NCBI GenBank assembly: GCA_013115135.1
Contig: JABANP010000074.1
Span: forward strand, 62,001 to 126,000
Direction: 5' to 3'
Source of the DNA: Perkinsus olseni
Taxonomy: Eukaryota > Perkinsozoa > Perkinsida > Perkinsidae
DNA length: 64,000 bases
The notes below the pieces were generated by a model. It saw nothing but the letters and a program-made list of their open reading frames with translations, was not told where the DNA came from and ran no database searches. Position numbers and translations under genes: made by a program. Below are positions 14,954-52,500 of this stretch, piece after piece (positions within the stretch are counted from its first letter, which is position 1; every line of letters starts with the position of its first letter).

Positions 14954-15001
14954 CTATTTGAAGTTACGCAGGTTCGAACCCCAGCGAGGGCATTATTAAA
15001 C
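14954..15001 (-). repeat. class B (tRNA T-arm) sequence in a probable 5' UTR intron of PCYT2
   Basis: The 48-nt segment starts with GT and ends with AATAG, 18 nt upstream of the PCYT2 ATG. It contains GCTGGGGTTCGAACCTGCG, a T-arm/B-box sequence. Because it would be in untranslated RNA, protein homology cannot confirm the intron. Confidence 0.5.
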
Positions 15002-15066
15002 ACAAAACTACGATCTCTGGCATATCTGATGCCTCTTAATGTACTGACATAGAAACGCCCATAAGA

Positions 15067-16180
15067 TCAGTAGGCTCCAAATCTCTCAGCACGCAGTCGC
15101 TTCCGCTCCGCCTCCGTTTCAGGCGTCGTCAATCCGAACCTAAATACCCAGGTTCGATTCCCGGCGCCGGCTTTTTTATAACCTTTTAGCTCTCTTCAAC
15201 CGCCGCTCAGCCTCTTCGGAAGAAGCGCTAGCGTCAGAAACAGACCTACAGAAGAAAGGTTGACAAATGTCACGAATTATGATCAACTACTTGGTCGTCT
15301 TCTGACCCTTCTTCACGGGAGTAGTACCGAATCTGGCCGCTCTCGCAGCTCGCTTATCTGCCTCAGTACAAGTGCCAAACCTGAACACAGCAAGGAGCAA
15401 TCTTCGGTGAATAGCCTCTGTATTTCTCACGAAACGAACTGCAGTGCGCGGTACAGTGAGTCAGCTACCCCTTCACAGGAACCTCCAATCTTTGCTTGAT
15501 CCGTGCTTTATAGAGAACACACACAAACTTTGCTTTCACATTACAGAGAAACTATTCCATTGCACGCTGCTATCCCACTAGACTAACGAAGAGGTACTTC
15601 ATAATAGACAGACTAAGATCAAGCACCAAAGACTCACAAAGACGATGTGCACTCTACTCGTCAAAGCTATACGACCATCACATGGTCAAGACTGAAACAG
15701 TATGTAAATGGCGATCCATCCTGATCGGACACTCACTAGTATTTCCAGTTATCATCAAAATAAGCATAACATGGTCCTAATGGGTATCCCTAACTGGCAA
15801 ACTAGCCAGAAGCATATCTCTTCTTCCACCGCCGTAAACCCGGTGGATCAATTTCCGATCGCCGAGAAGTCTGTCGACGAGAACACTGCCATACCCGAAG
15901 GCATCGTGATTGGAATCGCTGATCAGACCCCTGGGGTCTGACCCCAACCCATAAAGCAGGGCCGAGAACACCTCAGTTACTCCGCATGACTATCACAGGA
16001 ACGGCATCTACAACCATCGATAGAACCCGACCTAGATCGACTTCGTTACGAAGTTCACAAAATGATTTCCCAAACCCCCACAGTGTTCCCTCGTAAATTA
16101 CCTCTCAGCTCGGCGCAGTCTCTTTTCCTCCTCAGAAAGCTCGTCCTCGGAACCAGACTTGGAAACCTGCGACAGGAAAG
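15067..16180 (-). CDS. SARNP/Tho1-like RNA-binding protein (C-terminal part)
   Basis: Several exons encode short basic helices ending in RFG, the signature of SARNP (CIP29)/Tho1: EEEKRLRRAERFG (exon ending 16102), DKRAARAARFG (15380-15307), EEAERRLKRAKRFG (15183 upward) and ERKRLRAERFGAY, then TGA at 15067. All joins keep frame with GT-AG introns. Members take part in mRNA export with TREX/UAP56. The N-terminal SAP domain expected in the family was not identified; it should lie above 16180. The stop is 132 bp upstream of the PCYT2 start on the same strand. Confidence 0.75.
15140..15182 (-). repeat. class B (antisense tRNA 3' end) in a SARNP-like intron
   Basis: This 43-nt intron splits the Arg codon of KRAKRFGL (GTTATA donor, ATTTAG acceptor). 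Read on the opposite strand it is CCCAGGTTCGATTCCCGGC, then GCCGGC and a run of six T, i.e. the T-arm, 3' strand and pol III-type terminator of a tRNA gene. Confidence 0.85.
15381..16101 (-). other. long intron of the SARNP-like gene
   Basis: GTAATT donor and GTTCAG acceptor join RRAE-R to FGTCTEAD in frame. The 721-nt intron contains a 17-nt palindrome (CAGACCCCTGGGGTCTG, 15924-15940) and a minus-strand open segment of about 60 codons that I regard as non-coding. Confidence 0.6.
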
Positions 16181-16259
16181 ATCACTTCACTTCATCACGA
16201 TGGCAATCAAAAAAATACTAGCCGATAATGGAGATAATCACAGGCAAGGCGCTCTCTAG

Positions 16260-19200
16260 GTTGACCTTAGAAAACCCTAATGCACAGAATGGCCTAACAC
16301 GCTCGCGGAGCTAGTATGTGCGCCACACAAATTGTGTACGGTCATCTCGCTAGCGTGGAAGTTGTGCATACACAACAGACGAGAGGGATCATATGCACTA
16401 GAAAAAGAATACTCAATATGAGGCCACATGAGCAAAAGTAGAGGTTGCTGCACTAGCAATGACTTGGAATTATCTTCGTGATGATATCATCCCACAGTAC
16501 ATAGTTCTCGTGAGGTGTGATCAATGCATCATGATCATTAGCGTGAACCGTGACTCTAATGAGGGATCTAGCTGTCACGTATCATAGCGGCCCCATCTTT
16601 GCACGTTGCACCTTCCCAGCACAAACTCTGTTACTACTGCAATATTACCAATGACAATACCTCTATGATCGATACTCACAAAGCATTATCAGGACATGAT
16701 ATGTAGACCGCTGTTTTCCGGTCTCGTGACGGACCATCTACTACGCTATCATCACGTACTACAGCATCGACCACACTGCCGAAAACCATTACGATTGGTA
16801 TCATTCCTACTCAAAGTACGGTAGCCGTGCCCCCCCCCCCCGTATATTGTACACACCATCGGCAACCCTCGCCGTCATTTTCAAGCTATTTTTAATTACC
16901 GATGCTATTGTAGTGCCTTCCGCTCTCTCCGTGCTCTCTTCTACGGCATCTCCCTGCTGTTGCGTCTCGGCTAACTCTTTCTTGTCTGAACCAAGACACT
17001 AAATCTGGTCATCATGCACCCAGTCGCGGGAGCCCGCCAGAACTACTGAGTCTCACCCTCTTACCTTCATTCTTTCCTGCACCGTCGACCACCTCCCTAG
17101 AAACAAGATGCCGTGCAAAATGGATTGCCCCGTGTCTGTAATTTCCTTGCACGAGTGAGTTTTCGCTTTTACTATCTTGAGTTCGAAGGTAAGTCTGAAC
17201 ACACTTCTACTTCAATTTGACTTTCATTCAGCTAACTTTCTGTTTTCCGCCGTACTGACTTATCAAGTCAGAACAGTAAGACGAGACAACCCCCGCGACA
17301 AACCGGTTTTCTAAACTCACATGATAAATCGTTGAGCAACGGGCGTGCTCAATCGTCAGCTACGATTAAAATACTGGTTACACTCGACGAGAATTCCGTT
17401 AGCCTGAAAATTTTCGCTCAGTACGAATCACCTAGACGTGCTAGTCGATACGATCAGCATTACTTTTGCGCTTCTGTTTTCGACGGCAACGGAGCCTCAC
17501 TGGAAGCCTCTTCAGAGGTAACGGACATCAGAGGGAAGAAGTAGACCAAAGCAAGATTTCCATCCCTCTACGCACAGCCACAATATTGCTAATTTATAGA
17601 TAGCCGACGATATCTCGCTCGCCCGCACGCCTGCGCGGAAAACATTTCCATCCGAATCTCTACTACTTATAATAGAAGAACATACATCGTGCGCGAAGAA
17701 TCGAATTCCCGTCGTATTTTTTGAAGTTCGCTCCCGGCTTTTTTCCATGTTAGACAGCTTTACTTCTGCTATCGCATTACTTAGTGATACGTTACACACT
17801 CTCCCTGCTGCTCGTAATATCACTTTCATAGTGTGATCGATTTACGCTGATTAATTGGGTTAAACCATCACAGAAAAAATGTCCGAGTAATTTTATTACA
17901 AAGTATTATGCTGTTCAATATCTTACATCGCTCACAAATTTTACATCTTCTCGTTTGTCTCTGTGCATAGAGTTTGCCGTACTTCCTGGAAAGCAGTACT
18001 ACGCGTAGACACTTCCCAGGTTCGGTATGATGTGATGTGGATATAGTTATCGCCCCTCACAGATGTGCGCCGATGTACCAGGTGTTAAAACGTCGCGAAA
18101 TGCTATTTCCGTTCAGAACCATATCCCTCACGCTGGTTGAGTTTGCCCAAGCATACGAACTAAACCTACTCTTAAAACTCCTCTACACCTATAGTGAGAA
18201 CTAGGACTTACGTTCAACGGTAGCTGCAGATAGAAATACAGCTTCTTACTAACATGCGCCGATTTACTCCGTGTATCAACGTCACGAGACGCTATTACGC
18301 GATTTCGCTCTTTAATTGTAGGTATTTTTCCAGTTCTTGTTCGGCTCCTTTCAAGTAGAGATTGTCCCACGGTCGAGCGGCTCAAGTTGAGCCCATTCTA
18401 CTTGTGGCAACGCCATCATATCACGCTACCCGTATTATGAGCTTTCAAATGGAGACGAGCGAGTTCGCTCCCGGAAAAGTTGAGGGAAGTAACTGGGTGG
18501 GCGGTTGGATACCTTGACTTGAGATGAAGGGATCGAGCTACGCATGTGAACTTTCTTCCCAGACATTGGTAGCAGTCGCTGTCAATCGTGCAATCGTCGG
18601 ATTAGGGAAATCTTTCCTCTCCTGTCGTTCGCACATTGTAATTTACGTTCCATTGTTGGGCACGCAAGTAACATGATGTTAGTGTCGAGTCGACACTGTC
18701 GACTCCACACTGAGTATCTGCGGAATGCGGCTTCGGTAACTATCTCCGCTGTACCGTGCTCGAAGTTCATAATTATATTCTCTCCGATCCCGTGGTAAGT
18801 AAAGTTTCATTCACTCGGAATCCGGGTCTCGGATGTAGACTACATGGAAGTTCATAGCGGTAAGTGCATGGGCGTATCATCAGTGTCATCTATCATCCGA
18901 AATAGCTGTCCAAACTGGGAGTTTGGTACGGCATCTTCGAGGGACAAGTTGGTTGCCCAAAGTGAACAGCTCTTCGAGCCCACTGTTGCAGTGCAACAGT
19001 TGCACTACTGAAGCTTGGCAGTAGTACCTCAGATGCAAGTCCACGTGATGAGTGTTTGGACAGGAGGCCTGAGATATCGTAGCACAATTCCCGTTGAGTG
19101 AAGGGTAGCAGGATTCTCAGGCCCTATCTGGGCCGCCCGGGAGGGGAGGAAAATATCTGAATTCAGGTGGAAGTTCCAGTGGAACTGCCACGGTGGAACT

Positions 19201-20828
19201 GGTAATACTATTCATGGTTATCCAAATGCCGTCGTCGTGATCGACGGCCACGCTGACGACCACTGCCACATATGTTACGCAGTGTAATTTACACTCTGCC
19301 GGAGGCTCCGACTCGGAACTGTTATATCGGATGGCGAAATGGCACTTCACCACCGGTAGAGTCGTCCTGCTGCAAGCTCACGTAGAATCACACACGTCTC
19401 CGGGCAGTCTGAATCGTGTGAATCACGCCTACTAGGCTGCGAGCCTCAAGCTCGGGAGTTGCAACGGTTGAACGCAAGAAAATACCTGAGGATACTTCGG
19501 GGTGGGATGGAATCTCACTACATAGAGTGATCGGCCGAACTCGTTAAGTGCTAGCTAAGCATACTCCTCAGATTGGTAAGCTCTAATAGAGATACTTTGT
19601 AGGATTTGGAGGTGAGTCCTATTAGGACTGTCCTAAGTACTGACGTAAAAGCGGTCACCACAACGTGATGGGACAGATCGCTAAGAAGCAAGGTATAGCG
19701 CTGTTGCGACATCTGAGCCAGATGATCTGACAGGGGGTCATTGCGGGCCCCTGCGAAGAAAGCCCGCCCAACGGGCGGGCTACCTGCCGCATACATGCAC
19801 AAGGTAAGATAGCCCATCACTTTATTGAATGCGCATGAACTGCTCCATGAGGTCTTCCGATGTGGCTTCTTCCAGCGGCTTCGACTTCCTCCACCACTTC
19901 CTCGGACTCAAGCAACGGAAAGGGCGATGTTCCAATGTAGATTCGCAGAGTATTTCATGCTCACTCAGCCCGATTCGTCTCCAGCGCATTTCATTTTTAT
20001 TCATTAGATTCTGGTGTTCATCTATCTCTCTTTTTGAGTGCCTCTATTTTTGCGGCCTCCGATATCGTTCTCCTTCTAATGAAACCACGACTCGTGATAC
20101 ACTCTCGTCAGTCTCGTGTACGGAGACCACGACGCATATGATATAAGTTAAATATATGCCTTATTGGCCAAATCCGTTGAAGATCTCATTGCGGTAATTT
20201 TGTCGATACCTAAACCCTTCACTTCCTTCAGTTATTCCAGGAGTGCCGGCGAGCATGTCCTACACCTCTCGATTTTGATCCAGCTATTCTACCTTCAAGT
20301 ACTACAATCCTCTACATACCTCCTACTACTACTGCAGATGTACCAATCATTCTCCTGACGTCGTCATTTCTCTCGCAGCCTTTTACTACACGTCCTACCA
20401 CTGCCTCTACTACTACTCTACTCGAGATGTCCGTCTTCAAAAAGACGAAAGTTGACTGCCGAATCTATAATATAGTCATTCCCAGATCTCTTTTTTGTCA
20501 ACACCAACATTCATCTCCCAACTGGAGATTTACTTGGAGACTCCAATGTTCATCTCTATGTACCCGTTTCATCATTCGCACTATCAAGTTCTGAAACCTA
20601 TCCTCGCTACTCTGTAACGACCCTTGTGCTAACCTACCTTCTACCAAATACTCAACTACCAGGTAGTAATTACTACCTACAACGAACATTATTTTTGATT
20701 CTCTTACAAGCTGCATATACTCCGAGCGTGAGCGAACCATAGAACATGTCCGAAATAACGCTACATTGATACTGTATACCCCACTTGTGAGATGTGCAGG
20801 ACAAGTGAGCTTGATATGAATCCTAGCT
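16260..20828. other. long stretch without a confident gene
   Basis: Open frames here are short and show no recognisable domain. The longest minus-strand one, at 17512-17829, is a possible exon. Seen: a C10 run at 16831, a diverged duplicated segment (TGCGCCGAT.TAC..., near 18064 and 18254), and a perfect G/C hairpin at 19761-19781 (AGCCCGCCC / GGGCGGGCT). It may hold lineage-specific genes that I cannot resolve. Confidence 0.35.
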
Positions 20829-20902
20829 ATTCCCCGAGCGTAGCGAGGGACGTGGTCCCTCTGACTAAGAGCTAGAGAACCCCGGAGCGAAGCGACGGGT
20901 TC
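20829..20902 (+). promoter_or_regulatory. repeated GAGCG(T/A)AGCGA motifs upstream of the secreted-domain array
   Basis: Two related G/C-rich motifs, CCCCGAGCGTAGCGAGGGA and CCGGAGCGAAGCGACGGGTT, lie about 30-110 bp before the first ATG of the secreted array. Each can form a small hairpin, and AGGGAC/GTCCCT lies between them. The position suggests a regulatory or transcription-start element, but no function is known to me. Confidence 0.35.
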
Positions 20903-20935
20903 TGCTAGTGTCTCCTATTTAACACAACATCCGCC

Positions 20936-23608
20936 ATGTTAAGCCCTCACCGCACTCCTATGCCGAAACTCATCTTCGTTCTACTCTGTCTATACGAAGC
21001 CGCCCTCAGTGCGGCTCCCAAAGTGAGATTAGCCCCGGTGGTGAAGAACGAGGTGGCGTCGGGATTGTACAAGCCTTCGAGGGAGGCCTCCGAGAAAATA
21101 TGCTCTACTCTTCCGTCGCTCACAGAGCTCAGTTTGGAGGTCTCGGAAAGTGGTGGACAACAAGTGGATCTTGCGAGTGCTAGAGTCGGTGATCAGCTTG
21201 TCGAGATGAGAAAGAAATCTCCTTTGGTGTGGAAGGCAGATGGTGCCACGGAAAGCAATTAACATCAGACCTTACGAGAATTCGCTCATAAAAGTAAACG
21301 GTGCTTCAATTTCAAGGCGAACACGCCCTCGGGGCTGAGCGAAGCGGGTGAGTTCATGCGGAACGTGTTCAAACTTCTTGGAGAGGACGAGCGCCAACAG
21401 CTCGCTTTGCAACTGGCGTTCTGTGAAACGCAGTCGGGCCTGCTGGTTGGCATTGGACTTCGGAAGAATGGAAAAGGCTCCATCATCGGTTTCGAGCATA
21501 TTTTTTCTACTGGGCCGGCCGGTCGAGGCAGAAACTGCTCAGGAAGGGCCAAGGCCTCCTTCACTGCCGTACGAACCGGTGCGCATATTATATGCGGCAT
21601 ATACCACCTGTCGTCTGGGAAGATACGAGGCGACGCCTCGGAAGCACCGACTATGTGTGCTCAACACTACCGCTGCTGACTAGTTTCGTGATGAAGGTTT
21701 GGGAGTACGACGGGCAACAAGTAGCGAAGATGACAGCGACAGTGGCTGACAGGCCAGTCGGGATGGCTGAGGGTGTTCGTCTGGCCTGTTACGGTGATTC
21801 TTTCGTGAGACGGCTCAACTTCACCCAGTATGGGTTCCCCAAGAAGAAACCGGAAAACTGCTTCCGCTTCCTCGAAGACGAGAGAGATGTAGTTGAGAAG
21901 TTCATGCGTGGGCTCTACACTGCCATGGGGGAGCCCCTGACCCGGCGGCAAGACTCGTCCATCGTCATTTGCAAGTGCACCTCGATCATCCTGGTTGGTA
22001 TGATTCTCGAGACCAAGCGGCATCGAACTCGTGGTTTCAAGAATATTCTCTTCCTTGACGGTCCGTTGGCGATCGCAGCGCATGAGCAGATCGACAGCGT
22101 CGCCCCCTGCAACACGGGAGAGAGCTTTGGGTCGAAAAAGAGAACGCCCATCCGCGGCGGTGGGCGCTGCGAAGGAGCACGAGTTCGTTGAGAGAAAACA
22201 CTTGCCATTTTGAACGTACACATCGAGAAAAAGAATCCACAGCGAGGGCTGTGCAGCACGTTCCCGCTGCTCACCGGCTTTGAATTCGAAGTCTCGGAAA
22301 TTGATGGGCAACAAGTGGCCCTGGCTACCGCGTACGTCGGGGATCAGCGCATAGTGATGAGAGAGACGTCACGTTTGGTGCGGTACGGCGACGTTCACGC
22401 GGGCGATAGGCCTGGGGGGCTCAAGGAAATCTTCATTTTCAAGGCAGATAAGGGTTGGGGGATGAGTGCAGCCGGTGAGTTCGTGCGCGACCTTTACCGT
22501 GCCATGGGTGAGGAGGAGCCTCATCAGGCTGCCACGCATCTCGCCTTCTGTAAGGTTCGCCTGGGCTTGCTGGTCTTTCTCGGACCGAAATGGAGCGGAG
22601 GTCGAATCACTAGTTTCAAAGGTGTTCTTTCGCTCATCGGCCCAAGCACGTCTCCTACCTCCGCCGAGGGGTCACCTCTTTTTGTCGGCCAACTCGGTAG
22701 TGGGAAGTGATGTACCATCCGGAAGGTACAAGGCCGTAAGAAATGGCACGGATAAAGTGTGCCCCACCCTGCCGCTGCTCACCGATTTCGAAGTCACAGT
22801 CTGGGAAGATGGCGGACAACAAGTAGCAACCATAAACGCGAAGGTCGCTGATGAGGTGGTCCGGATGACCCGCAATGTTCGTTTGGTGTGGTACAGTGGA
22901 GGCCAAACGAGAAGACGAGAGCTTAGCCGATACGGGCTCCCTAAAAAAACTTCGAAAAGATGCTTCCATTTCGTAGAACAGAAGGAAAGACCGGTCTTGA
23001 AGTTCATGCATGACTTCTATGGTGCCATGAAGAAGGTTGCTCCCAAATTCGCTCACGCGCACCTTGCCTTCTGCCCAGCGTCGTCAAAGATCCTCGTTGG
23101 TATCGGGCTCCAGAAAGCAACGACAGACGATCGACTCACCGGCTTCGAAAATGCCTTCTTCATCAGCAAAGTAGAGAAGAACTTAGCTGAGGGTGACGTC
23201 CCAAGATTATCTTCCTCGCCACCGGTTGGTTCTCGAAGCCGGAAACGGAAGAGTTCATCAGAGACCGCGGTCGCCGCGAAGAAACGATCGACTTCCAGGG
23301 AGGAACCGAGCGGGGAGATGGCAAGACGTCCGGCGTCTGATATATCCGACTTCGTGCCAGATTGGCTGTTGGATGATGATCTGGAGCCTGCAGCAGCACT
23401 TGAAGTCAAATCTTTGTGGAAAAACTCCCAACCGACAGAGGTCGCACATGCGGCCCACTCTCCTGGACTCTCTCTGGCTATCACTGAGGATACTATGGAA
23501 GATGAAGAGAATCCTAACGTTCAAGCTGGACCACCTCCGACTCATAGTATTGTAGCCGATGGGAGCCCCGCCCCCACTTCGCTTTTTTTCTGGAGACCTT
23601 CGGGATGA
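20936..23608 (+). CDS. secreted protein with four tandem domains, reading frame broken
   Basis: An N-terminal signal peptide (MPKLIFVLLCLYEAALSA from 20960) is followed by four copies of a ~150-residue domain at about 21030-21520, 21590-22075, 22215-22660 and 22695-23170. Shared marks are C.TLP.LT.F, then GQQV, SRYGLPKK, CF.F, FM...Y.AMG, HLAFC and LVGIGL. Copy 4 is the best preserved and has a basic linker and an acidic C-terminal tail. Copy 1 has an in-frame TAA at 21260-21262; the four copies lie in at least two frames, and a linker in a third. I found no GT-AG introns that repair this, so the locus is either a decaying array or several short genes. The family is not recognised; it resembles expanded secreted families of parasitic protists. 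Confidence 0.6.
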
Positions 23609-24503
23609 CTGGACCCTATTCCCAGAGTTATTTTCTCTGTCGCCTGCGAACCTCGAACCAACAGAGGATGTGCAATAGACGTCTGCTGCCGCAGGTGAAA
23701 CTACAAACTCGGAGCCACTAGCTGGGGCCGAGCAAGCCGTTGGCGCGCTGCCCGATGGAGACGAAGCAAGAAGGCGTCGCATATCACTGTTTGTATGCGT
23801 CGTCATAATACCAGCACGCTGAAACCTGGTGGCGGGTGCGCTCAAGCTCAGCGAAGGTGCTCACGTCTTGAAGCTGGTGCAGGGCTCTTCTCATCTTTCA
23901 TTGCATATTCGCCAAGCCTTCTTCATGAGTAGCTTCCTTGGTGTATGTATTCACGCCCCCAGCGAGGATGCCCCTACGCTCATCATGCTGTTGAAGCCGC
24001 ATGCTCCGCTGTTCACATTGATGTTGATGTTGTTGTAGGTTATTGTGTTGCTCGTGTCGAGTTCATTTACTCTGTGAAGTGGCACTTTCCGCTGCGGCCA
24101 CACAGAAGCCTCACTAGGTACTCTTATGCTACCTCTCAAGCGTGCACGTAAGGGACCATCCCAACGCGCATCATTATAAGTTTCAGACACTCCTACATCG
24201 GAGCAATAGCAAACTCGACAGAAACATATATAGTCATGGGTTGGCAGCGCCGTGTGTCGCTTGGTTGCTTCGAACTCCACTTCAAGCACTTTGGAAACAC
24301 AAAAGCCCTGTTTGACAAAATATGTAAATACGAACGAAAGGGGCTGCGGTACTGAAGCAATAGCAGCCGAAGGTTGAGGCCGAGCTTCATCAGACTCGCG
24401 ATAACTCTTGTGCTCGGCTTGCTTGAAACAGCGCTAAAGATGACTTTAGGCCTTCATACAGCCAAACAATCGGGCTAGAAACTGAGAGAGAGAAGAGAGC
24501 GTG

Positions 24504-24625
24504 TTTGTTACTCATTGCGCGCCGATCATCTTGTGCATGCGTGCATAGCTAATACTCCCGCCCCCCGAATAGATCTAGGTAGAAGACTTTATACTCCTTC
24601 TCGCCTTGCGTTGACTATGAGCAAC
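24504..24625 (+). repeat. diverged duplicate upstream region, copy 1
   Basis: This segment shares blocks with 39675-39840: CGCCGATC.TCTTGTG.ATG, CGTGCATAGCT, a T/C-rich CTC..CTTGCGT and ATGAG.A.CAACA. Both end at an ATG, suggesting duplicated promoters plus first codons of two related genes. Confidence 0.45.
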
Positions 24626-24879
24626 AACGGAGAAGCAACAGTGTTCAACTCAGCAGCGTATAACGGTTGTACGTGGTGAACGAAATCGAACTTCTAATAT
24701 GCGAAGCTGAGTTTCTCAAGAGCACGAGATTGAAAGCTCGGACACGAGCATCGAAAGATCGATCCAAGATCGCTATTTCGAAATTACGAATCGCGGAGTT
24801 GAGTCTAATTCCATCGATAACGAGCTCACCAAGGGCCAAGACACGATTCTGAAGATTCTAGCCGACGAGTGGATCTGAC
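24617..24879 (+). CDS. small hypothetical gene
   Basis: ATGAGCAACAACGGAGAAGC begins a short frame just after the duplicated upstream region. A later open segment (SQEHEIESSDTSIERSIQDR, then TKGQDTILKILADEWI, stop at about 24879) has protein-like composition and could be the second exon. The join is not fixed by homology. Confidence 0.3.
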
Positions 24880-24980
24880 GGTTTCAGATTCGTACAACTG
24901 AACTTCGCTCGCCTCCGCGGTATTAATCGTTCTATTTCTGAGCCAGATGCTTGGAAGGTTAAGCACTGTGTTTCCCGACA

Positions 24981-26690
24981 CTATGCGTTGCACATCACTC
25001 TACTGAGACGATGTGAGGAGGAGAGGACAGTTGTCAATTCACGAGCGCGCAAGAGTTGAGAAAACTGCCTATGATTACAGTGTAGAGTGTTGTCGTAAGT
25101 GAACTGGAGACCCAAACCGGCGCGAAGTTGGCCACTGGAACTTACGCTCGGTCTCTTCCCTAAGTCTTCTAAGGGAGGAATCTTGATAACAAGGCTAGTC
25201 ATGTGAGCTAGCTCCTCTTGCTAAAACAAGACGACCTCGACCCCCAGAGGTTCGATCCCCGGGGCGTACATCTAAATTAATTACTCCCCACTTAGCGGCA
25301 ACCAATATCGGAAACCAGGCATCTCCAGCAGCATAAAGCTTCTGGTCTCTTGTGAGCTCGGGTGCCGTCCAATGGTAGAACCGTGGAAGATACCTAGCAG
25401 AGACGAGCGCAACTTGACGATCTCCTGCTCTAAAATTGGTACCCAGAGAGCAAATCATGGCCAGACGGACAGTGAGTGACAAGAATCATGACCCACAGCG
25501 TGAGAAAAGCTTCTCGGTGAACCGTCTGATTGCACAGCATATCAACGCTTTAGAGAGTCCCTAACTGGGCACATCGGCGAGAGTCTAACTAAGCCGAAAC
25601 CGTAAGGGGTGGACTATTAACTCTCACACACGGCTTCTGCCTGACAATTAACCGACGTTCGATACCCCCCAAGGAATCATCCGCTCACTTGCCCCAGCGC
25701 TCCTAGCTCAGAAAGCGTTGCTGCCGACCAGTGGTTATCTATGCTGTTCTCCTACCCGGGTTTGTCGATGTTGTAGCCGATACTCTCGCACATGCCTTGG
25801 AGCCCGGGCTTCTCCAAGCCCCTCTCCTCCGCCTCCTTCAGCATGTCTATAGTCTGCTCTTGTGGGATAGCAAACCCGAAGGTCTCGCGGACTTTCTTGA
25901 AATCGCTCGAGCCCATGCCCACACCGATCTTCGTTACTTTCTGAGAAAATCATTGGAGCAAGAACCCTTCGAGATAACGATGATTGAGGAAACGAGAGAT
26001 CAAGCTGATTCCGGCGTTGGAATGTGAACTCGCAAACAAGCGCAAGTTTGAGGGGCTTCTTGAGTCGGAGGCTCTTCAAGCCTACTTCATCTAATAATAT
26101 TGACTTAGCCACCGGATGCAATACCGGGCTCTCGGTATCAATTCGAAATAACACAGCAAGCCTTGTAGTTGCAATCTGTACCTGCCAACGGCTCTACGGT
26201 GGATAACGTCACCGAATGTGGATGAGCGAGTTCACACTTCTACGCCAGTACCGGACCAGTTCCCCAATGTGCTCAGTTCTTGTGGGATTCATGCCCGAAT
26301 CGATGTAGAATGGCTATCAGATAGTTCATCAAGAGGTTCACGCCAACATTCCGAAAGACCGTGGGAAAGTTCAGATAGACCACGAGACCTACCAGTGAGA
26401 CCGGAGGGTTACTTTCCCCTTCGTTCCACTCGAAGTCGATGCCAACGAAAGGATGACCGCATCTGGAGAGCGAGCAACCAGTTCCCATTGGATCTTGCTC
26501 GTGTAACCATCATAAAGTGCGGATCGCTAACGCCAGCACGAATCAGGCTTCGGTAGCGAGCAGCACTGTTATCAGAAAGTAGTTCGCAAAGGGCTATGGA
26601 ACAGACGAATGGAGCAGGAAGCCCTCTCTCACAGCTTGTCCTTGACAGAGGGCACGTCATGTTCGCCCTCAACAACGTAGATCTCTCCAC
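24981..26690 (-). CDS. WRN-like DEDDy 3'-5' exonuclease
   Basis: All three exonuclease motifs of the DEDDy class are present. Exo I is FVGIDFEWNEGE (near 26450), with the catalytic D and E. The Exo II region is KVTKIGVGMGSSDFKKVRET (near 25940), followed by GLQGMCESIGYNIDKPG. Exo III is HWTAPELTRDQKLYAAGDAW (near 25360), with Tyr and Asp in the YAAxDA arrangement. The joins IDKPG-YLPRFYHW and AAKWG-QEELAHM keep frame with GT-AG introns. The closest relatives I know are the WRN exonuclease domain and plant WEX/EXD2-like proteins. No helicase part is seen nearby. Ends are uncertain, since a good donor (GTAAGT) lies in the last segment near 25145. Confidence 0.8.
25221..25284 (-). repeat. class B (antisense B box) in the WRN-like exonuclease intron
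   Basis: This 64-nt intron lies between AAKWG and QEELAHM (GTAATT donor, GTTTTAG acceptor). On the opposite strand it reads CCAGAGGTTCGATCCCCGGG, a T-arm with the B-box core GGTTCGATCCC. Confidence 0.75.
25523..25632 (+). repeat. ~105-bp dispersed repeat, copy 1
   Basis: Runs from GTCTGATTGCAC through AGTCCCTAACTGGGCACATC and TAACTAAGCCG to GTGGACTATTAACTCTCACACAC. Similar copies lie at 30126 (+), 33697 (-) and 34081 (-), with partial ones at 27128 and 31130. Confidence 0.85.
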
Positions 26691-26805
26691 CGAAACCGTC
26701 GTATTCTTTCATTCAGTTGCAGTGGGTTCAACTGACCTGTCCAAGGGTGAACTGTAGATTGTGCTGAGACAGGATTCATCCTTCAGTCTTTGTCGTTCCA
26801 GGCGA

Positions 26806-26822
26806 GTGGTCTCGAACCACTG
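26806..26822 (-). other. isolated tRNA T-arm-like hairpin
   Basis: On the minus strand AGTGG-TTCGAGA-CCACT forms a perfect 5-bp stem with a 7-nt T-loop. The flanks do not fold as a complete tRNA. It lies just upstream of the WRN-like coding exons and may be another class B element. Confidence 0.4.
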
Positions 26823-27127
26823 ACCAATCGTGCGTCTGCGTGCTCCCGTGTACGCAAACACAACTTGCATCAAAATCGTCATCCAGGTATAACAAGCATG
26901 CCGACCCGTTCTCAGGTTAGACAGTGGGTCGGACCGACTGTGGACGCAAGGAGAGTTCGACTATACCTCGCTATCCCCCGGAGTCGTAGCTAGAGGTGCC
27001 AGAATCGAGAATGCGCTCTCAACTGAGGTAGAAGTCCAACTGAACCTGCAACGGGTGTTGAATGATGAACCAAGTGTGTCAAGCTAAGAGTTGGGCACGT
27101 CATCTAGGAAACAAGGTAGGTCGGTGC

Positions 27128-27178
27128 TAGTCTGATTGAGTCGGTTTTCGGCGTTGGACTCAAAACTCACACACACTC
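27128..27178 (+). repeat. ~105-bp dispersed repeat, partial copy
   Basis: Retains GTCTGATTG at one end and GCGTTGGACT...ACTCACACAC at the other, with the middle lost. Confidence 0.6.
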
Positions 27179-27518
27179 ACCCGGCGAAGATTCGTTTAAA
27201 ATATTAAATGCCGTTCACAGAATCACCCGAGATTTCGTCAATCCTCAGCATCTTCAGGCTAAAGGCCGAAGACGGCTGCATCAACTCATTACGTTCCACC
27301 GCAATACACTACAAGTGCCACAGAGCTTCGACCCGTGCCGTGGTTCTGCAGTCTGTCAACAAATCGCAGTTTATGGCACTTCCGATTCGAGTGATACCAC
27401 AGAAAATACTCCAACAGTTAATGCACGCCCTACTATGGCGAAACTCAAACCGAAATAAGTGAGAGGATACCAGCAATGCTTCACAGATGGACACCGGAGA
27501 AGGACCATGACACATCTT

Positions 27519-30125: not shown

Positions 30126-30205
30126 GGGAGTCCCTAACTGAGCACATCGGCAAGAGTCTTACTAAGCCGGAACCGTAAGCGTTGGACTATGAATTCACAC
30201 ACAGA
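30126..30205 (+). repeat. ~105-bp dispersed repeat, copy 2
   Basis: AGTCCCTAACTGAGCACATC, then CTTACTAAGCCGGAACCGTA and GCGTTGGACTAT...TCACACAC. It matches copy 1 in the same orientation. Confidence 0.85.
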
Positions 30206-31129: not shown

Positions 31130-31165
31130 TGTGAGTTTATAGTCCGACGCTGGAGCCGGCCCGGT
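31130..31165 (-). repeat. ~105-bp dispersed repeat, terminal fragment
   Basis: Only the end GTGTGAGTTTATAGTCCGACGC is recognisable. Confidence 0.6.
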
Positions 31166-37756: not shown

Positions 37757-38345
37757 CTATTGAGTACTAGCTAGCTGCTCGAAGGGCACCAAAGCACGCC
37801 TAAGGGTGATAGAAAGGCGCTCGCCCCGATGAAGGATACCGTCGGCCAGCACCGACTCGCCCAGGTCGCGGCCCTCAGTCGACTTTTCTTCAACTGGAGT
37901 ATCCGTGAACGGTATTGAATGGAGATAGTCGTGGTACGCCTCGCCCTTGAAAACCAAAAGTGACCTTGCTGGGAGTAGAACCTGCGCCGTTACCTCCTCG
38001 AAAGACTTACCAAACTGCATGACCGTTGCGCTACCCAGACATACAATTAAAACCACTGGGAAATAAGCCGGGCCGTCTTCGTGAGGCATAATGCCTCCGC
38101 ACCCTCTCTCATAGTCGTTGACCAGCGCGTGGTTCAACCTAGGATTCCCATCATCGAACAGCTCCCCTAGTTGCGGAATGCTCGCAAGGAGCTCCGTTGC
38201 CAGATGGTCTACCAAACCAGCCCCTCCTCCCACACCCGAGTTGAAGCGGGCAGAGTCCGTCGCGCGCCACGTAATTGCTCATAATGGGGCAGCTCTCGAA
38301 TGGCCGTGGCCAGCTCAACCGCAACCTCCGCCAGGACCACATCAT
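37757..38345 (-). CDS. ALKBH6: ALKBH6-like 2-oxoglutarate/Fe(II) dioxygenase
   Basis: The catalytic core is clear. LNHALVNDYERGCGGIMPHE, then DGPAYFPVV, carries the HxD iron ligands. VLLPARSLLVFKGEAYHDYL, then HSIPF, carries the distal His. GERLSITLRRALV carries the 2OG-binding Arg and the substrate-strand Arg of AlkB proteins. The pattern PHEDGP.Y.PVV is characteristic of ALKBH6. The exon before it (ending 38345 after TTTTTTCTCAG) gives DDVVLAEVAVELATAIRELP, then HYEQL. A class A element lies at the exon-intron junction, so the exact join is uncertain. The N-terminus lies above 38345. The biological substrate of ALKBH6 is poorly settled. Confidence 0.85.
38260..38276 (-). repeat. class A element at an ALKBH6 splice junction
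   Basis: On the gene strand AATTACGTGGCGCGCGA follows GAGC. The best in-frame solution places the donor inside the element (AATTAC|GTGGCG) with a 44-nt intron ending GTGGGAG, giving HYEQLRGAGLVDHL. A read-through reading is also open for 15 codons, so the element might be exonic. Confidence 0.5.
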
Positions 38346-41128
38346 CTGAGAAAAAAGACTCTAACCAGTGTATTTCACACGTCCCCTATTCATTGTCGAT
38401 TTCTTATATTCGAGCGATTCCGTACATTTCAAGGCACCAAAAACGTGACAGCGCCGGTATATGCTCCGCCCCCCCCGCAATAGTATACTATTGGACTGAG
38501 CAACGGCTGTTAGCGACAAGAGTAATCGATGCTAAGTCCGCTAGCTCGGTTGTCGATTCAGCGGCCGAGGGATGTAGCAGACAAAGCTATCATGTACCCA
38601 CTTTCCCCCTTTTCTCTACTCTCCACTGCCTCAGTCTGATACTACCAATCATAATGCGGAAAGTGCAAGCTCCTCTATGAAAGACAGGATGATGGGTACG
38701 ATGAGTGAAGGCCTACCGAGACATATGTCTACCCCCACATGCCCCAACAAGGTACCCATGCACACGTCGCGATTTTAACAACGTTCCACCGCCAATACAT
38801 CGAAAGGCTTATCAAGGTACTGGTCACCACCGCTCTCATCGGATGGGGTACACGAAAAGTTCCATAATTCGTCCTCTGCCGATTCACTGACGGAATCTCG
38901 CTGTACCACTACCAGACACAGCTGATGCACCCGAGCAGCTCTGAGCCCTTTCTCGACACAGCAGCGACCTTATGTTCAGGTCGTCATCAAAAACGCGGTC
39001 TTAACAGCACGGCGGCCCAGCCATTGAGAAAATACCTTACCAATGACATAAACGCTGGAAGGACAGCCATGCACTTTAAACCGCTCAATAGTGTCTCTTG
39101 GGCCAAGTAAACCACGGCGAATCAGCTGTCGATCAAGCAACGACGAGCGGCGGCGGCTGCTGACGGCAGATTTAACCTGGCAGAGGGATGCATCCTGGCG
39201 GCCGGTGGAAGTCCGGACCCCTCAGCTCGACTACATTAATATTCGTCAAATGATTCGTAACGGACAACTAAAAGGTTGGCTATCGCCACGGCAGCGACTT
39301 CGATTCACGAATGTGCACGTAAACGATCGTTCACACGCATGAACGGACGCCGGAACGGACGCCGGAACATCCTCAAGCCGTACGGCCCATGACCCGATCC
39401 AATACAGAATTTGTCACTTTCATTTCAATTTCAGGGGATCAATATTTCCACTCTCCAACCCCCTAAGAACACTTCCGCCATCACCAGCATTTGCTCACTT
39501 TCCTCTACCAATGCTCTGGCTCAGCCTACTCACCTCTGCTGCATCTCCTTCCTTCCTCGCCTTAGCCTCCCGCATCAACTGCCGTACTGACAGGACTGTC
39601 ATACCACTGAAAAACACTGCAGCCGGAAAACCCTCCCTTCTCTCTCAATCAGCGCCGAAAGCAAGTACTCTGACGCACAACACTCACTATGTGCCGCCGA
39701 TCGTCTTGTGTATGCGTGCATAGCTGATTCCCCTCGAGAAAGCAAACCTAGGAAGAAAAGACATAGATGGGTCTGAGCCTAGGTCCAGGACATAAACCTT
39801 CACCCTCTACCCCTCTTGCGTCGAACATGAGTAGCAACAGGTGGTCCGCGTGACGCAAGCGTTGAGATACGATACCATATCAGCCTAAACCCCACTACTA
39901 AGCCAACTGCCTTTATCTGCATCACTACACGCAGCTCACTTCATAATGTAAAAACACGGTGGCCCTCCTGGTAGGCCGATTGTCAATGACGATGGAAGGC
40001 CAGCCCGGGCAGGCAGTAACCGGATAGGATTGAAGAACCAAACACGCATGAGAACTCGATACCGGTGACGATCGCGATGAAATTACATGACAATAAAGAG
40101 AGTTAAAAAACCGTTAAGGTGCGGCGGCGAAGATGGTAAAAACATCAACTAAGGGTACGCTAAGATATTTTGAAGATTCACCAGGCATCCTGCCATACAT
40201 CCTCCGGTATTGTTGGACCTGAAGGAGGGGGCACGACTGGGACGAAACGAATAACAACAACATCGACGCTATGCAACTCTCGCGGGTCTAACCCCGAACC
40301 TCGGAAGATGCGATCCGATATCACGCGGTTTCCAAGTACCAGGGACGATCGACTGTGGTGAGAGACACAGGGACGCTCCTCAAGTCGTTTCAGGAAATAG
40401 AACTAGTTTGAAGAAACCACACTCAGCAGACGAAGGATCGGCGAGGGTGTGCGAAGAAAATAGACGGGGATCTCCTTTGCCGGTTAAATCAGCTACGAGG
40501 ATGAATGAATCAGTAAGATGATACCACAACAATGGCAATCATCATCAGTCTCCGTAACCATCCTACCAAACTGCTGTTGGTATTTATCATCACTAGGATC
40601 GTAGAGTGTCAACAACAGAAGACAAACGGAGACCATCACTCAGTTAATGAGGAAGGGCTCAGGAGGGGCTTACCTCTGAATCCACCATCACCTCTCACAA
40701 ATGGTGACGATGCAGTGGAGCGTCGAGTACTGAATAAATACAGCGTTAGGGAATAGCAAGGTGAGGCAAGATGAGCAAGATCCCTACATGCCGCCGCCGC
40801 CTTTCCTCGGGCTCGATAGGCCTCGTGTACGGCCATTGTCCATCTCGAAGCGGCGAAAATCGCCACTGCTTGAATGCTGGCGGAAATCTCTCGAACCAAA
40901 GGAGGCACTCCGAGGACCGCCCTTGACCCGACCTGACCAGAGGGCCCCTACCAAATCAGTCAATCGGGCTGAGTCGAAACACCACCACCACCATCGAAGA
41001 ATGACGAGCAGTAAAGGGACCCTCCCGTTGATGAGCTATGATTGATAATAGCGCGCTCAGAAAAAATGAAACCACGCGTTTCCTGCGTTTCAGGTTGGAT
41101 ACCTTTCCCTGGACCATATCTCGAGCCT
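38346..41128. other. stretch with weak coding signal only
   Basis: Contains the duplicated upstream region at 39675-39840, a 12-bp tandem duplication (gaacggacgccg twice, 39341-39368), a 22-bp direct repeat partner at 40761-40782 and a C9 run at 38470. The first exon of ALKBH6 probably lies in 38346-38500. No other gene could be built. Confidence 0.35.
39675..39840 (+). repeat. diverged duplicate upstream region, copy 2
   Basis: Partner of 24504-24625, ending ATGAGTAGCAACAGG. An in-frame stop follows soon after that ATG, so this copy may have lost its gene or splices early. Confidence 0.4.
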
Positions 41129-46840
<5,712 letters not shown>

Positions 46841-48132
46841 GATCGCCAAATTCTGATCATAACATGGATTACATAATTTCAACAGTAGCCAAAATCGTAT
46901 TTACGATCGGAGAAAATTTCTGAACATCCTTTTTATAAGGCCCTACCATTTATAAAGAAGATTCTTGGTCGGACGAGACGACCAATTTCATTATTCGACG
47001 AACTCAGTGAATAGAGGTTACACGAGAATAATAGAGCTTGAGAGCATAGATCAGCAGCACCCAGCATCGGGTGACGGTCGGACGCTGCTAGGCGTATCTT
47101 GGGCTGGGATTTCTTCGAGGTGCGCAAGATACCCCGCATGGAGGTATGCGAGGTGCTATGCGATTGTGTACTCGGCTAACAGCGATATAATGGCAGTAGC
47201 TGTTGTAGAGTAGTGAAGTATCTTAGGTCGATCCCTGCGTTACTCAGAGTAACCCATCCTACACGGTCCCTTCCCGGACCACTCTAGAGGATGCCCACGG
47301 CATTCCAGTAGTCTTCCATTGATACCAGAAGTCCGTCATTCAACAGAGGTGATGTTATTCGGTGTGAGTGTGGTATCATCAACTATCGACTGCTACTCGG
47401 GAAGAACGTAACTTCCGAAGTTACCAAGCTCAACTTCGTCTATTCAGAAACTAGCGTTAAGGTTTGACGCGTAGCTTCCACCATCAGAAAAGCACTGAGC
47501 GCTGCTCTGGTGTAATGAATACCCTCAGGGACTCTATGGCATAGTTAACTAGTATAGTTCGGGTTTCCAATTTCTTAATTATTAATCTAATCCTAATTCA
47601 ATCCTAATTTCCTGATTTTATCAATTCTGGTATATTTCCTTAGTTTTTATGATTATTGCCGAAAAATAGTATTTGCAAGGGCATTAGTGATGGTTTTTGT
47701 AAAGTACTAATTGCTTCCCCCTGTACCTGGCAGTGGCCATTCTGCTGCTGCTCCCTTCATCCTCGCCTTTTTCCGCTACAGGCTGGCTTATCATAATGAT
47801 ATCCTTTATAAAGTTGATATTATGTTATATAAATGGTCGCATTGATGAAGTAAAATGACAAACAAATTGCGAAAATCCGGCGGAGCGATGCTCTGTTATG
47901 CGCATACTACTGCGCAGGAACGAAGGTGGTACAACATGACGATCGTACGCTGTAATTCTCGTCACGAATAGCAACTTCACGTTGGAGTGATGATCTGGGG
48001 GTGCTACATAAGCCTTGTGTTGGGCCCAATAATCGTGCAGCTAACGAGCATTTAATAAACTTGGGGATATGTTATTTCTGTCACCTAGTTCATCTGGAGG
48101 TGTTATCTTTCTCCAACAGCTTACCATTCACG
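46841..48132. other. intergenic stretch between divergent genes
   Basis: Lies between the DDX3 5' end (minus) and a plus-strand first exon at 48133, so it should contain both promoters. 47540-47860 is markedly AT-rich. Nothing else was recognised. Confidence 0.4.
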
Positions 48133-48249
48133 ATGGCGGTTCATTCCCGACCAGCTGAGGACCCCTCTGGCAGTGGATCTGATCCGGAGGGCCGTAGTGG
48201 CGACGAGGACGCCTGCACTCTGATTGAAATGCAGGGGTCCATGATAAAG
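48133..48249 (+). CDS. probable first exon of a plus-strand gene
   Basis: ATG at 48133 opens 39 codons (MAVHSRPAEDPSGSGSDPEG, then acidic, ending IEMQGSMIK) and ends at a GTAATG donor. The acidic/Ser-rich start and good donor support a real 5' exon. It may belong to the UBR gene that follows on the same strand, but the intervening exons were not all traced. Confidence 0.45.
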
Positions 48250-49128
48250 GTAATGATGAATTGGAGATCGATTGCATGGAAATTCGGGTCCGGCGAGGCT
48301 CGTCAGTACTCTCGAGAATTTGGGATATATTGATTGAAAAGTTGGATTCAACAAGCTCGAGTGAGGGACCCAAAAATCCTATTTTGTCGTAGAATTCATC
48401 GTTACACAACTGCCTCAACTGCGAAATATGAGTAATTTTTCTCGCTAGTAGTAGCCGTAATCAATATAGATCCAGAACGGGATGTAATATTATGGCAATT
48501 ATGGTTCGGTAGATGAATGTAATCTCGGCCGGATGGTATCAGCCGGTATGAGAGTCATTGGGAAGAGATCTTAGTAACTTTCAGATCATCACGGCAAACA
48601 ATAAGATCAATGCATGCCTCTACACCATTTCCAGGTCACTTAGTGAAACTCCAAAGCAATTCAGTCGGCACGCGAGACGCATCCGGATCGCCCCTCCTCC
48701 CCGCCTGGGGACTCCGGCCATGAGTTGCGGGACTCTCAGATCATCATGGCAAACGATGAGATGACTACATCCCTCAACATACCCACCAAAGGGCCGTCAA
48801 GAAGACACGTCTGGCGATATGCATAGTACTCACACTAGCACGACGCTAAGATGTTCGGATATCCACACCCACAATAGAATGCATTCTCGAGTACTCTGAG
48901 GAGGGACTTGGAAATCCGATCAGTCACGTCAATGGCTGTTGGCACTATCTTGATTGAAAACTCCGAATGCATCACTGCTAACTCTTGGAGTGGTACCTGA
49001 TACCTCGACCTTTTCTCCTGTTCTTTACGCAACAGAGAGAGGATCACGCAGTATCGGTGATCTAGTAGTATCATAATATGGTATCAATAGCACTGTAGCA
49101 TTGATCATGTCATCGTCCACTGGCAATT

Positions 49129-49316
49129 CATGTGGCATAGTGGCTGCCTCATTCCTGCATGTGGCATAGTGGCTGCCTCATTCCTGCATGTGGCATAGTG
49201 GCTGCCTCATTCCTGCATGTGGCATAGTGGCTGCCTCATTCCTGCATGTGCCATAGTGGCTGCCTCATTCCTGCATGTGGCATAGTGGCTGCCTCATTCC
49301 TGCATGTGCCATAGTG
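49129..49316 (+). repeat. 29-bp minisatellite with an A-box core, about 6.5 copies
   Basis: Seven starts of CATGTGGCATAGTGGCTGCC plus TCATTCCTG. Copies 5 and 7 have GCC for GGC at one base. The core TGGCATAGTGG matches the pol III A-box consensus. A shorter relative is at 32106. Confidence 0.95.
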
Positions 49317-49551
49317 TCCTAATTATTGCATACTTTCTACATTACCGGGGTATATTAATCTAAGCTCGTAGGCACTGCACAAGGGCCTCGGACGTCCGGA
49401 GTGGATGGAAGAACAGCTGATTACCATGTAAGGGAGTTGGCCCGTTTCGAAGTCTTATTGCCCCTCTCGGATTCATTGCTAGTGGAAAGGTTGCGAGCAG
49501 GCAGTTTTATCGCAGCAAATACGATCTTGTTATAGATTGTCATTTCTCAAG

Positions 49552-52500
49552 TTCGCTTCAATTTCCTGGATCGAGTAGCGCATCATTCTGGTTACGAATC
49601 GCAGGTATGAAGCTTTCATCAACGCCCCGGCTTCGACGTTGGATAAGAGTTCGGAAGATGCCGCGGATCCCCAAGCTCAGCGATTGCAGCACTATCTGGA
49701 TACAGTCCTTTACAGTAAGTGCATGCGTGCAGCTTATACCACTCCATAGGTGAATCGTAACAGGTTTGGCGCCTGTTAGCGGAGGAGAGTGCAGTGGGGC
49801 GTCTAAAGAGAATTGCTCCGACCTTATCGACGCGGCGGCGAAATGGTATGATGGGTGGCCCGTGGGATTCGAACCGAGGACCAGACGGTTGCTTGTCAGG
49901 TGTGAATCCCTACCGAGCAGTAAAGGCGCTAAATGCCGCTGTGATTCAGTCTGGTACGGTCGGGAGGCAGATATCGTGTGAATCAAATTTGGCATTTTCG
50001 AAGTCCTTCGCAGCTCGCTTCAGGATCGCTCTGGACGAATCGGAATCGGGATGATTGTATTAGAGCGCATTGTAGATTTGTCCCGCACCCAGGTTCGATT
50101 CCCGCAGCCGTCATTTTGACTTCAGGTACGTCGCCGATGGCCGTGAGACCATCGCCTATGGATGCAAAACCTGTGGATTGAGTAAGTGTATCGACTGGTC
50201 CGGTTGAACAATTGAATCTGTTGCTGTTGTTCTTGGCAGGTTCGGCGTCGTGTATCTGTGTTGCTTGCTTCGACGAGGGGGACCATGAAGGCCACGACTT
50301 CTTCATATCAAGGTAGGTCTGAAAAAGTCTATGTCGCTCGACGAAATTTGTCACGTGGTAGGGTCAATGCGGTAAATGAACTGACTAGCACTTCACCGGA
50401 CTTATGAGAGAATGCGTGCTAGTGAACTCTGGCAGAGTCGTCACTTCTGTTTGATAATGTGTAGTCCAGCGTCTCCGGTCAGGTCGGATTACGGCTGCTG
50501 TGACTGTGGTGATGCATATGCTTGGAAACCTCAAGGCTTCTGTCGTCGCCACACGGGACCCTTGCCTGATGTGGATCCAGCTGATGGGCTCCCTACCCTC
50601 ACCAGATCGATATTAACATCGGCGATTGGTAGGGGGATGGGTACCTTGTTGTGTAGGAGCATGGTGTTGATGCGGAACTGGATCAGCTTCCCGAGGTCGC
50701 GGGTTCGAATCCTGCCGGCGTCATTAGCTACGGGTTATTATTCCCGGCGCACTCCATGTCCTTCTCTCTCAGGTGTGGTCTGTGGCATTCTGTTAGAAAT
50801 GATACACGAGACCATGACTGTGAAGGACTCGTTAAAGGCAGGGACGCCGAAGTGAGTCTGCCGATTCACCTCAGCAGCAGTTGTAGGGCACCTTTACTGC
50901 CTCAGCCTCCCTCCCTTCGACATCAGAGCCCGACTGCCCATAATGGACGGGCAAATATCCATCATACTGCAGTGGATGATGGACCTGTCCACACTGCATG
51001 ATGGGCTGCGGCGATGCACAGCAAAGGCCATTCTACAGTCACCTGCTCTCAGGCTGGATAAGGCGACAAATCGACTGGTGAGAGAATATTGAGCCTTTCC
51101 CTTGCTGCATTGTTGGAGAGACGCGCAGCTCATTATTGATTTTATTCGAGCCAAGTGCAACATGTGTCGAAGCCAGCAACTTAGTTCGGCGTTTCCGGAT
51201 CGTGGTCTCAGACCGCGATACCACCGCGTCCCGCGGTGGGAGAGCGTACAGCATTCCAATTTTTCGATTCTACTAGTAGTTCACATTTCCTCATCGCTGG
51301 TCCAGATTCCTTTCGATACGGAGACACCAGCTACTACCCCGTCCACAATCATTGAGGCTTTGCTCACTAGTCTGCACAGACTGGGGACGAAGGGGAGGAA
51401 AGCCCTCACTAATTTTATAGTTGATCAAATGCTTGATTTAACGTACGTGAAGGGAAGCTAATTCTCATCCTCCTCGATCCACGATTGCCATCAGTTCTGA
51501 TTAATGTCGTACAGCTTGTGGATCACAAGTAAATCACAAGTTGTGATAGTCGTGAACTTTGGAATCACACCCGATGTCCGGTCCTTGGACTGCGTTAGAA
51601 GCATGAGACTCGGTGACAGTCGAAACTGTTTGTAGCTGGATATGGACTGAGTTCTTTTTTCATAGGTTCAAACACGATTTCTCAATACTTTTTGTACGCC
51701 TGTATCACGACTTGGCCTTAGCGAGAACCAGCCCAGCTCGGGAGGTAGCATTTCCTTGCTGTGATAGGTCGTCGGCTCGATTCCTGCCGGGTGCATTCTG
51801 TGCCTCTCAGGCTGGCCTGGGATCTGAGGACCCGTCTGCCGCTGCCGAGATACAGCGACATAGCGAGCTGGGGGACTTCACATGTCAGATGTTCACCCGC
51901 AAGGATGTTACTGTTATGTTGGCTACTGAGTAAGCGATCGAAATTTATGGTAGGGAAGGACGATAAAGAAGTTGATAATTTCGTGGGAGAGTCGGCAAAA
52001 TGCAGGTGCCATTCGTCGTAGTGACCCTGCCATTTCGCGAGTCCTGTGTGGAGGGCATGGGGCCACGGTTTTAACTCCAAGCCTTGGATGGTACACCAAA
52101 CGTTTGAGTCTAAGCCTTAGACTCTAAGGTTTGGTGTGCCCACCGCGCGTTCGGAAATTAGAGAATAGTTCTTTTGAAAATTTTACCTTGCGGATTGAAA
52201 ATTTCGATTCGAAAGCATTACAGCGTGTCTGAAATCTCTATACTGTCAGGTATGACGTGCTCGGCACTATCCTTCGGACTGCACGAGACATGCTGATGCG
52301 AGCTGTCATTCAGGAAGAAGGTAGGTGACCTGTAGGGGATGGTAGAAACAGGCGGATGAAATTAGTCATCGAGGTTTCATGGGATAGTTCGCCGTCGAGG
52401 GAGAAATATCTTCTGTACTCGACCGCCGAAGGATATTTCCTGCTCCAGGTACTGGCGGCATGTATCGGGGTGTTGACGTTAGACACGCTGTCATCAAGAA

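Follow-up and report, generated by a model that had tools for sequence, protein, structure and literature searches.

How new introns originate is a long-standing question, and the known genome-wide source of them, the introners, is mostly DNA-transposon-like. The question is raised here by a 64,000-nucleotide stretch of the genome of Perkinsus olseni, a parasite of molluscs (contig JABANP010000074.1, positions 62,001 to 126,000, hereafter the window), for which an earlier note had proposed, from B-box sequences lying inside introns, that a tRNA-derived element has been creating or occupying introns. We find that many very short introns in this genome are made up, over nearly their full length, of a small element similar to the tail half of a tRNA gene. 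What the sequences show is the repeated element and its register, its place within introns of several genes in both orientations, the reading frames, and paralogues lacking two of the introns. Genome-wide counts, the frames of conserved genes and the paralogues reading through two intron sites support what the earlier note had proposed.

This genome is rather likely to harbour a family of introners that descends from a tRNA 3' end, and sequence comparison suggests that tRNA-like sequences may have been inserted into genes and become new introns. We infer insertion as the cause, a tRNA-like sequence of RNA polymerase III (Pol III) type as the ultimate source and a copied short RNA or DNA intermediate as the means of spread. 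If true, such a family would be a different source of introns, it would account for the supply of usable splice sites by a tiny sequence whichever way it is oriented, and it would make intron gain testable by species comparison within a single genus.

Short introns nearly filled by the element

The clearest cases in the window are three introns of the DDX3 gene, as listed below.

44031..44110, minus strand: DDX3 intron of 80 nt, tRNA-like in sense orientation; B box at 44049-44059; A-box-like TGGCGAGATGG by eye; GT..AG ends
45552..45598, minus strand: DDX3 intron of 47 nt, element antisense; B box on the plus strand at 45565-45575; GT..AG ends
46643..46726, minus strand: DDX3 intron of 84 nt, tRNA-like in sense orientation; B box at 46663-46673; tail CTTTTTTCAG; A-box-like TGGTGGAGTGG by eye; GT..AG ends

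The flanks of all three introns join in frame, and all three frames are blocked when the sequence is left unspliced. The junction of the 80-nt intron is crossed by a DEAD domain match and is spliced as predicted in a database protein (P0010, a partial DEAD-box helicase named Perkinsus olseni), which has the highest identity to the joined DDX3 protein among the 120 matches listed (90% over 64% of the query) and, by eye, differs from the window reading at very few residues outside the joins. The 80- and 84-nt introns look full-length tRNA-like by eye; their A-box-like sequences, together with some unselected matches of a genome sample, indicate that longer forms of the element probably exist.

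Across the genome, 16 candidate introns with exact ends were measured for frame and length. All of them join in an open frame. Twelve are 46-56 nt long, the others being 66, 80, 84 and 132 nt, and in these twelve the core of about 30 nt together with the splice sites makes up nearly the whole intron. Pfam was run on 17 proteins, 14 of which had been joined across an element intron; a domain crosses the junction in seven of the 14:

eIF4E: IF4E, 7e-22
dynein: AAA_8, 1e-22
ORC1-like (by eye): AAA, 2.5e-6
histidine-kinase-like: HATPase_c, 1e-13
Rab: Ras, 2.8e-5
DDX3: DEAD, 1e-48
eIF3c: eIF-3c_N, 1.7e-24, across an antisense element intron

In each of these seven genes the element, in one or the other orientation, is nearly the whole intron. 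Among the remaining Pfam inputs, seven gave nothing useful, one gave a coiled-coil below the curated cut-off, in one (UBR) the domain lies beside the intron, and the last was part of eIF3c, included as a control. The reading frames, the Pfam domains across junctions and the one database protein predict that the elements are spliceosomal introns removed from mRNA. Scoring of coding potential from long open reading frames was also tried and was too weak for calling introns.

Two near-identical histidine-kinase-like copies (L048 and L060, on C8 and C134) share the element intron and differ in the tail between the T run and the CAG, so that the end of the intron seems to be fast-changing.

Abundance and anatomy of the element

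The B-box motif GGTTCRANNCC occurs 15 times in the window as compared to a mean of 0.90 and a maximum of 3 in 100 dinucleotide shuffles, which bears out the excess over chance claimed earlier. Five of the 15 matches belong to a tRNA-Gln array, and ten lie outside it; one of these, the tenth (at 26808), lacks a clear tRNA-like tail.

545-1755, minus strand: four tRNA-Gln genes in tandem (three with CTG and one with TTG anticodon), spaced by about 297 bp, and a fifth copy, truncated, at about 1745

Only the four Gln genes were found in the window by the Rfam tRNA model at E<=10, and a spliced-leader pattern is absent from it. For comparison, 200 kb were sampled from 20 contigs of the 61.5-Mb, 968-contig assembly. 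This sample contains 18 matches to the motif (permuted motifs average 3.1): one in a tRNA-Ala, four in a tRNA-Leu array (three recognised by ARAGORN) and four which are palindromic partners of the Leu matches. Removal of the tRNA genes and the partners leaves nine B boxes at eight places, and the window is richer in B boxes than the sample. A profile of the element, trained on 33 elements from other loci, gave 23 matches of at least 12 bits (the cut-off) in the 264 kb of window and sample together, as compared to none in reversed and 1.0 in shuffled sequence. We sorted these into five tRNA genes or relics, one exon, and ten window and seven sample matches; at the sample's density of seven per 200 kb there would be roughly two thousand genome-wide, a rough figure from few counts. 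The match in the exon (near 37980, minus strand, 23.4 bits) lies in coding sequence of what we take to be an ALKBH6-like gene and was counted as chance.

The common tail beyond the B box, GGTTCGANTCCNGCN6CATT, is confirmed as a genome-wide feature, with 27 matches (ten of them in one tandem array and two in the window) and none for the reversed pattern. A core resembling the 3' end of a tRNA, GGTTCGANTCC+N10+ATTT, has 302 matches in the genome versus two when reversed; its N10 equals the distance that separates the B box from position 73 in a tRNA, and a few of the matches listed are real tRNA-Arg or tRNA-Glu ends. A pattern with N11 spacing and a stricter tail has four matches, the different tail making it no clean control of the register.

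Splice-site triplets adjoining the element served as a stand-in for a comparison of densities in introns and intergenic DNA. Within 20 nt of the core, CAG is found in 142 rows, TAC in 102 and the control GAC in 69, a locus being counted twice where two triplets fit; one tandem array (on C763) contributes ten rows each to the TAC and GAC lists, and its units also read TCAG. Among the distinct cores in the matches listed, the triplet falls within 5 nt of the tail in 29 of 73 for CAG (p=0.026), 36 of 70 for TAC (p=5e-5) and 8 of 39 for GAC, where a uniform distribution predicts 20.9, 20.0 and 11.1, respectively. CAG is read as the acceptor of a sense intron and TAC, complemented, as a GTA donor, so that splice sites appear to lie at the tail in both orientations.

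The anatomy of the element was derived from 37 distinct copies, taken from CAG-selected and non-CAG loci. Their consensus at tRNA positions 44-73 reads AGGTCCCGGGTTCGAATCCCAGGGGCGGCA and is followed by a T run, with positions 66-69 weakly conserved. The B-box core was the search key and its conservation is therefore partly produced by the search; C50 (34 of 37 copies) and AGGTC are conserved too, and neither was part of the search pattern. The T run is also seen in 19 B-box matches which were not selected for a tail (one palindrome counted twice), where positions 74, 75 and 76 are T in 12, 12 and 13 cases. The outer three pairs of the T stem are paired in 16, 8 and 17 of the 37 copies, which is the level of shuffled sequences, as were the 14, 15 and 15 in an earlier set of 33 elements, and C50 stands opposite A64 in 23 of 37. 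No A box was detected at the tRNA spacing in the 37 elements, the score being 4.86 of 9 as compared to 4.92-5.08 in controls. T-stem pairing at chance level and the lack of an A box indicate that none of these 37 copies is a working tRNA or the relic of a full-length one. The earlier description of the introns as built from pieces of tRNA genes needs one qualification: the copies closely examined are not pieces of working tRNA genes and form a family resembling the tRNA 3' end (variable loop, B box, acceptor 3' strand, A73 and T run).

Intron gain and competing explanations

Evidence on gain comes from the paralogues of two genes. The dynein intron at C292 splits one codon, and the residues of its junction are covered at all 11 other matched loci, six of them with long flanks on both sides and the remaining ones with a short flank on one side or a weak score. 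The sequence was read directly at four dynein loci; it is continuous at C520, C501 and C834, while at C135 there is a stop a little upstream and another intron may be nearby. The eIF4E intron at C6 is covered likewise at all four other matched loci, clearly at C458 and C113 and by weak matches at two. Paralogues which read through the intron sites point to insertion, and a single gain per family would be simpler than repeated loss. No target-site duplication (TSD) is detectable in 16 introns (mean run 2.81 versus 2.67 for re-paired ends, p=0.27).

Most likely, a short unit resembling the 3' end of a tRNA was inserted into exons in either orientation. The unit would start at about tRNA position 44 with AGGTC and continue with the B box (GGTTCGAWTCC), a variable 3' strand of the acceptor, A73 and the T run, and its insertion would give an intron usually of 46-56 nt. 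In sense orientation the T run would serve as the polypyrimidine tract, the 3' splice site, CAG or TAG, lying at this run or a little beyond it; when the unit is antisense, its complemented tail would supply the 5' splice site (such as GTAAAAT or GTAGAAAT). The antisense introns (DDX3 45552-45598, SARNP-like 15140-15182 and eIF3c) speak against a route by reverse splicing of intron RNA alone. In its fullest form, this proposal holds that a copied tRNA 3'-end fragment, retroposed or otherwise, acts as a genome-scale introner, that its Pol III terminator doubles as polypyrimidine tract or, when complemented, as 5' splice site, giving a spliceable intron either way, and that the route is distinct from that of DNA-transposon introners; we advance it tentatively, at somewhat less than even chances.

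Several observations weigh against an introner family. A BLAST search with the 78-nt DDX3 element finds only itself, and the identity between elements averages 0.66, with a maximum of 0.93, over 30 nt in the 37 copies. One-mismatch B boxes are only slightly more frequent than permuted motifs (7 in the window and 17 in the sample, versus 3.8 and 11.3) and in the sample do not exceed the reversed motif (18). Eight of the 16 measured introns keep at least one frame open without splicing as well, and there an open join does not by itself prove an intron; two of the 16 (L095 and L106) have doubtful ends, at which the apparent coding frames of the two flanks fail to meet. Pfam confirms five of 20 CAG-selected loci, two of which are near-identical copies of one gene, and one of 18 loci without CAG; the 20 were picked by hand along the listing, the Rab gene came from a separate set of 16 loci, and the Pfam calls represented eight of the 20 and five of the 18, the others showing open frames only. 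Gain itself rests on two paralogue families, and the undetectable TSDs count on the same side.

Part of this evidence would fit decayed tRNA genes or tRNA-derived short interspersed elements (SINEs) scattered over all noncoding DNA and persisting in pre-existing introns. Three unselected matches (L009, L013 and L014) look like full-length tRNA relics by eye, many fetched loci are without a demonstrated intron, and some of the 302 core matches lack both CAG and TAC nearby. However, at 46-56 nt most of the measured introns could hardly accommodate an older host intron, two of the sites are read through in paralogues, and splice-site triplets crowd at the tail in both orientations, which makes this explanation unlikely. 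A different account would have the B box kept by selection after insertion, as a TFIIIC-binding (ETC-like) site or for a part in splicing, for instance as a branch region, its tRNA likeness being functional and not a relic. The core may indeed be better kept than its flanks, as exact B-box copies are in excess (5 in the window and 3 in the sample, versus 0 and 0.4 for permuted motifs) and two-mismatch copies show no excess over permuted motifs, and the columns not fixed by the search match the consensus at 0.61. Yet AGGTC and C50 are conserved though a B box does not need them, and conservation of the core, being the search criterion, is partly artefactual; we consider such selection quite improbable.

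Marginally less probable still is that each intron is an independent capture of some host tRNA fragment, for instance as filler in double-strand break repair. The lack of target duplications and the great diversity of the acceptor part (73 distinct cores in 93 rows among the matches listed) would agree with it, and in the 19 columns that the search pattern leaves free the best sampled tRNA matches at 0.57, nearly as well as the family consensus and better than shuffled letters (0.42). As tRNAs match nearly as well as the consensus, it is mainly the shared mismatch in the T stem that favours a common family: the common C50-A64 opposition and the chance pairing of the outer T stem are not what newly made copies of functional tRNAs would show. 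When the elements are compared with 12 sampled host isoacceptor types, the best identity averages 0.69 and never exceeds 0.80, which speaks against capture from these tRNAs and also counts against the introner family.

Further places in the window and comparison with known systems

Beyond DDX3, B boxes had been reported inside introns of four other genes of the window; gene names other than DDX3 and UBR are from the earlier note or were assigned by eye.

15140..15182, minus strand: SARNP-like intron of 43 nt, element antisense; B box on the plus strand at 15151-15161; acceptor-like part followed by TTTTTT; ends exact
50641..50772, plus strand: UBR intron of 132 nt with a strong sense element AGGTCGCGGGTTCGAATCCTGCCGGCGTCATT; B box at 50702-50712; frame joins SAIGRGMG/VVCGILLEMIHETMTV; profile 39.9 bits
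51745..51810, plus strand: UBR intron of 66 nt with a diverged sense element (GGCTCGATTCC...GGGTGCATT); profile 27.8; joined frame open
50092..50125, plus strand: element GGTTCGATTCCCGCAGCCGTCATTTTGACTTCAG at the 3' end of a probable UBR intron (3' side only); profile 37.8
49846..49920, minus strand: tRNA-like element antisense to UBR, candidate intron; B box at 49865-49875; profile 19.7
25221..25284, minus strand: possible intron of a WRN-like exonuclease with antisense element; B box on the plus strand at 25249-25259; score 15.1; boundaries plausible by eye only
14954..15001, plus strand: element-like sequence GGTTCGAACCCCAGCGAGGGCATTATT in a putative 5' untranslated region intron of PCYT2; B box at 14971-14981; score 22.8

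The SARNP-like junction rebuilds KRAK/RFGLTTPETEAERKRLRAERFG, and the RFG motif crossed by the intron recurs in the same protein by eye. The element of the 132-nt UBR intron has the highest profile score in the 264 kb; its joined frame is open, as is one frame when unspliced. The 66-nt UBR intron is also open unspliced, so that the reading frame alone is no proof of an intron there, and its join gave no Pfam match. The exon directly downstream of 50092-50125 belongs to the UBR zinc finger (zf-UBR, 8.6e-18). Six of the places reported for the five genes (in DDX3, the SARNP-like gene and UBR) have exact, frame-fitting ends; the others are candidate introns.

The window also holds two other repeats: a dispersed repeat of about 100 bp at 48631-48733, found at 33 other places among 40 scored matches (85-92% identical) and showing no tRNA likeness by eye, and a tandem repeat at 49129-49308 directly upstream of the UBR exons, with a unit of about 29-30 bp containing gtggcatagtggctgcctcattcctgcat and a 97% match on C439. 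Elsewhere in the genome, the tandem array on C763 (L044) has a spacing of about 1,445 bp and carries the 3'-end-like element ten times at that spacing; in the one unit fetched, a tRNA-Glu and a tRNA-Ala are followed by the element soon after the T run behind the tRNA-Ala. The element end GGTTCGAATCCCAGCTGGTCTATTTTCAG and the bases following it are identical at C95:78903, C191:56434, C283:43910 and C484:8710 among the matches listed, which suggests that this end sits within a larger dispersed repeat.

Among known systems, ETC sites are loci of TFIIIC with a B box only, and the present element likewise has a B box without an A box; it differs in its conserved tRNA-like flanks beyond the B box and in its placement in introns. 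With tRNA pseudogenes it shares the B box, the variable loop and an acceptor-like register; unlike them, the elements are exactly placed as short introns, in either orientation and in several genes, and their common consensus has a broken T stem. As in tRNA-derived SINEs, a tRNA-like sequence with a B box, here with a T run in addition, makes an intron in a protein gene; SINEs possess an A box besides the B box, whereas the 37 elements are without an A box at tRNA spacing. A p-SINE1-like intron in one rice gene, the catalase CatA, is said to have been described by Iwamoto et al. in 1999; that precedent concerns a single gene, in contrast to the hundreds of cores across the genome here. The open-licence literature searched yielded neither an account of tRNA-derived introns in Perkinsus nor one of a tRNA-derived introner family of genome-wide extent.

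The closest likeness is to introners. As in these, a repeated element is almost the whole intron in many unrelated genes (here the seven with a Pfam domain across the junction), and intron-free copies of the coding site exist in paralogues of two families (six clear for dynein and two for eIF4E). According to Gozashti et al. 2022 (PMC9860276), introner families have median lengths of 30-654 nt and a bias to aquatic hosts, which the aquatic host studied here fits. The same authors conclude that most families fit DNA transposition, with TSDs and/or terminal inverted repeats (TIRs) in 59.2% of 130 families (TSDs in 49 of 130, TIRs in 72 of 177), and 'tRNA' and 'Perkins' do not occur in their main text; the Amoebophrya introners described by Farhat et al. 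2021 (PMC7789003) carry inverted and direct repeats. The present family differs in that no TSD is detectable, although TSDs are not obligatory for introners, and in the low similarity between its copies, one 78-nt element being without a second BLAST copy. The search of Gozashti et al. was aimed at highly similar introns. As the copies described here are very diverged, surveys relying on such similarity would tend to miss a family of this kind, and similar families may hide in other genomes.

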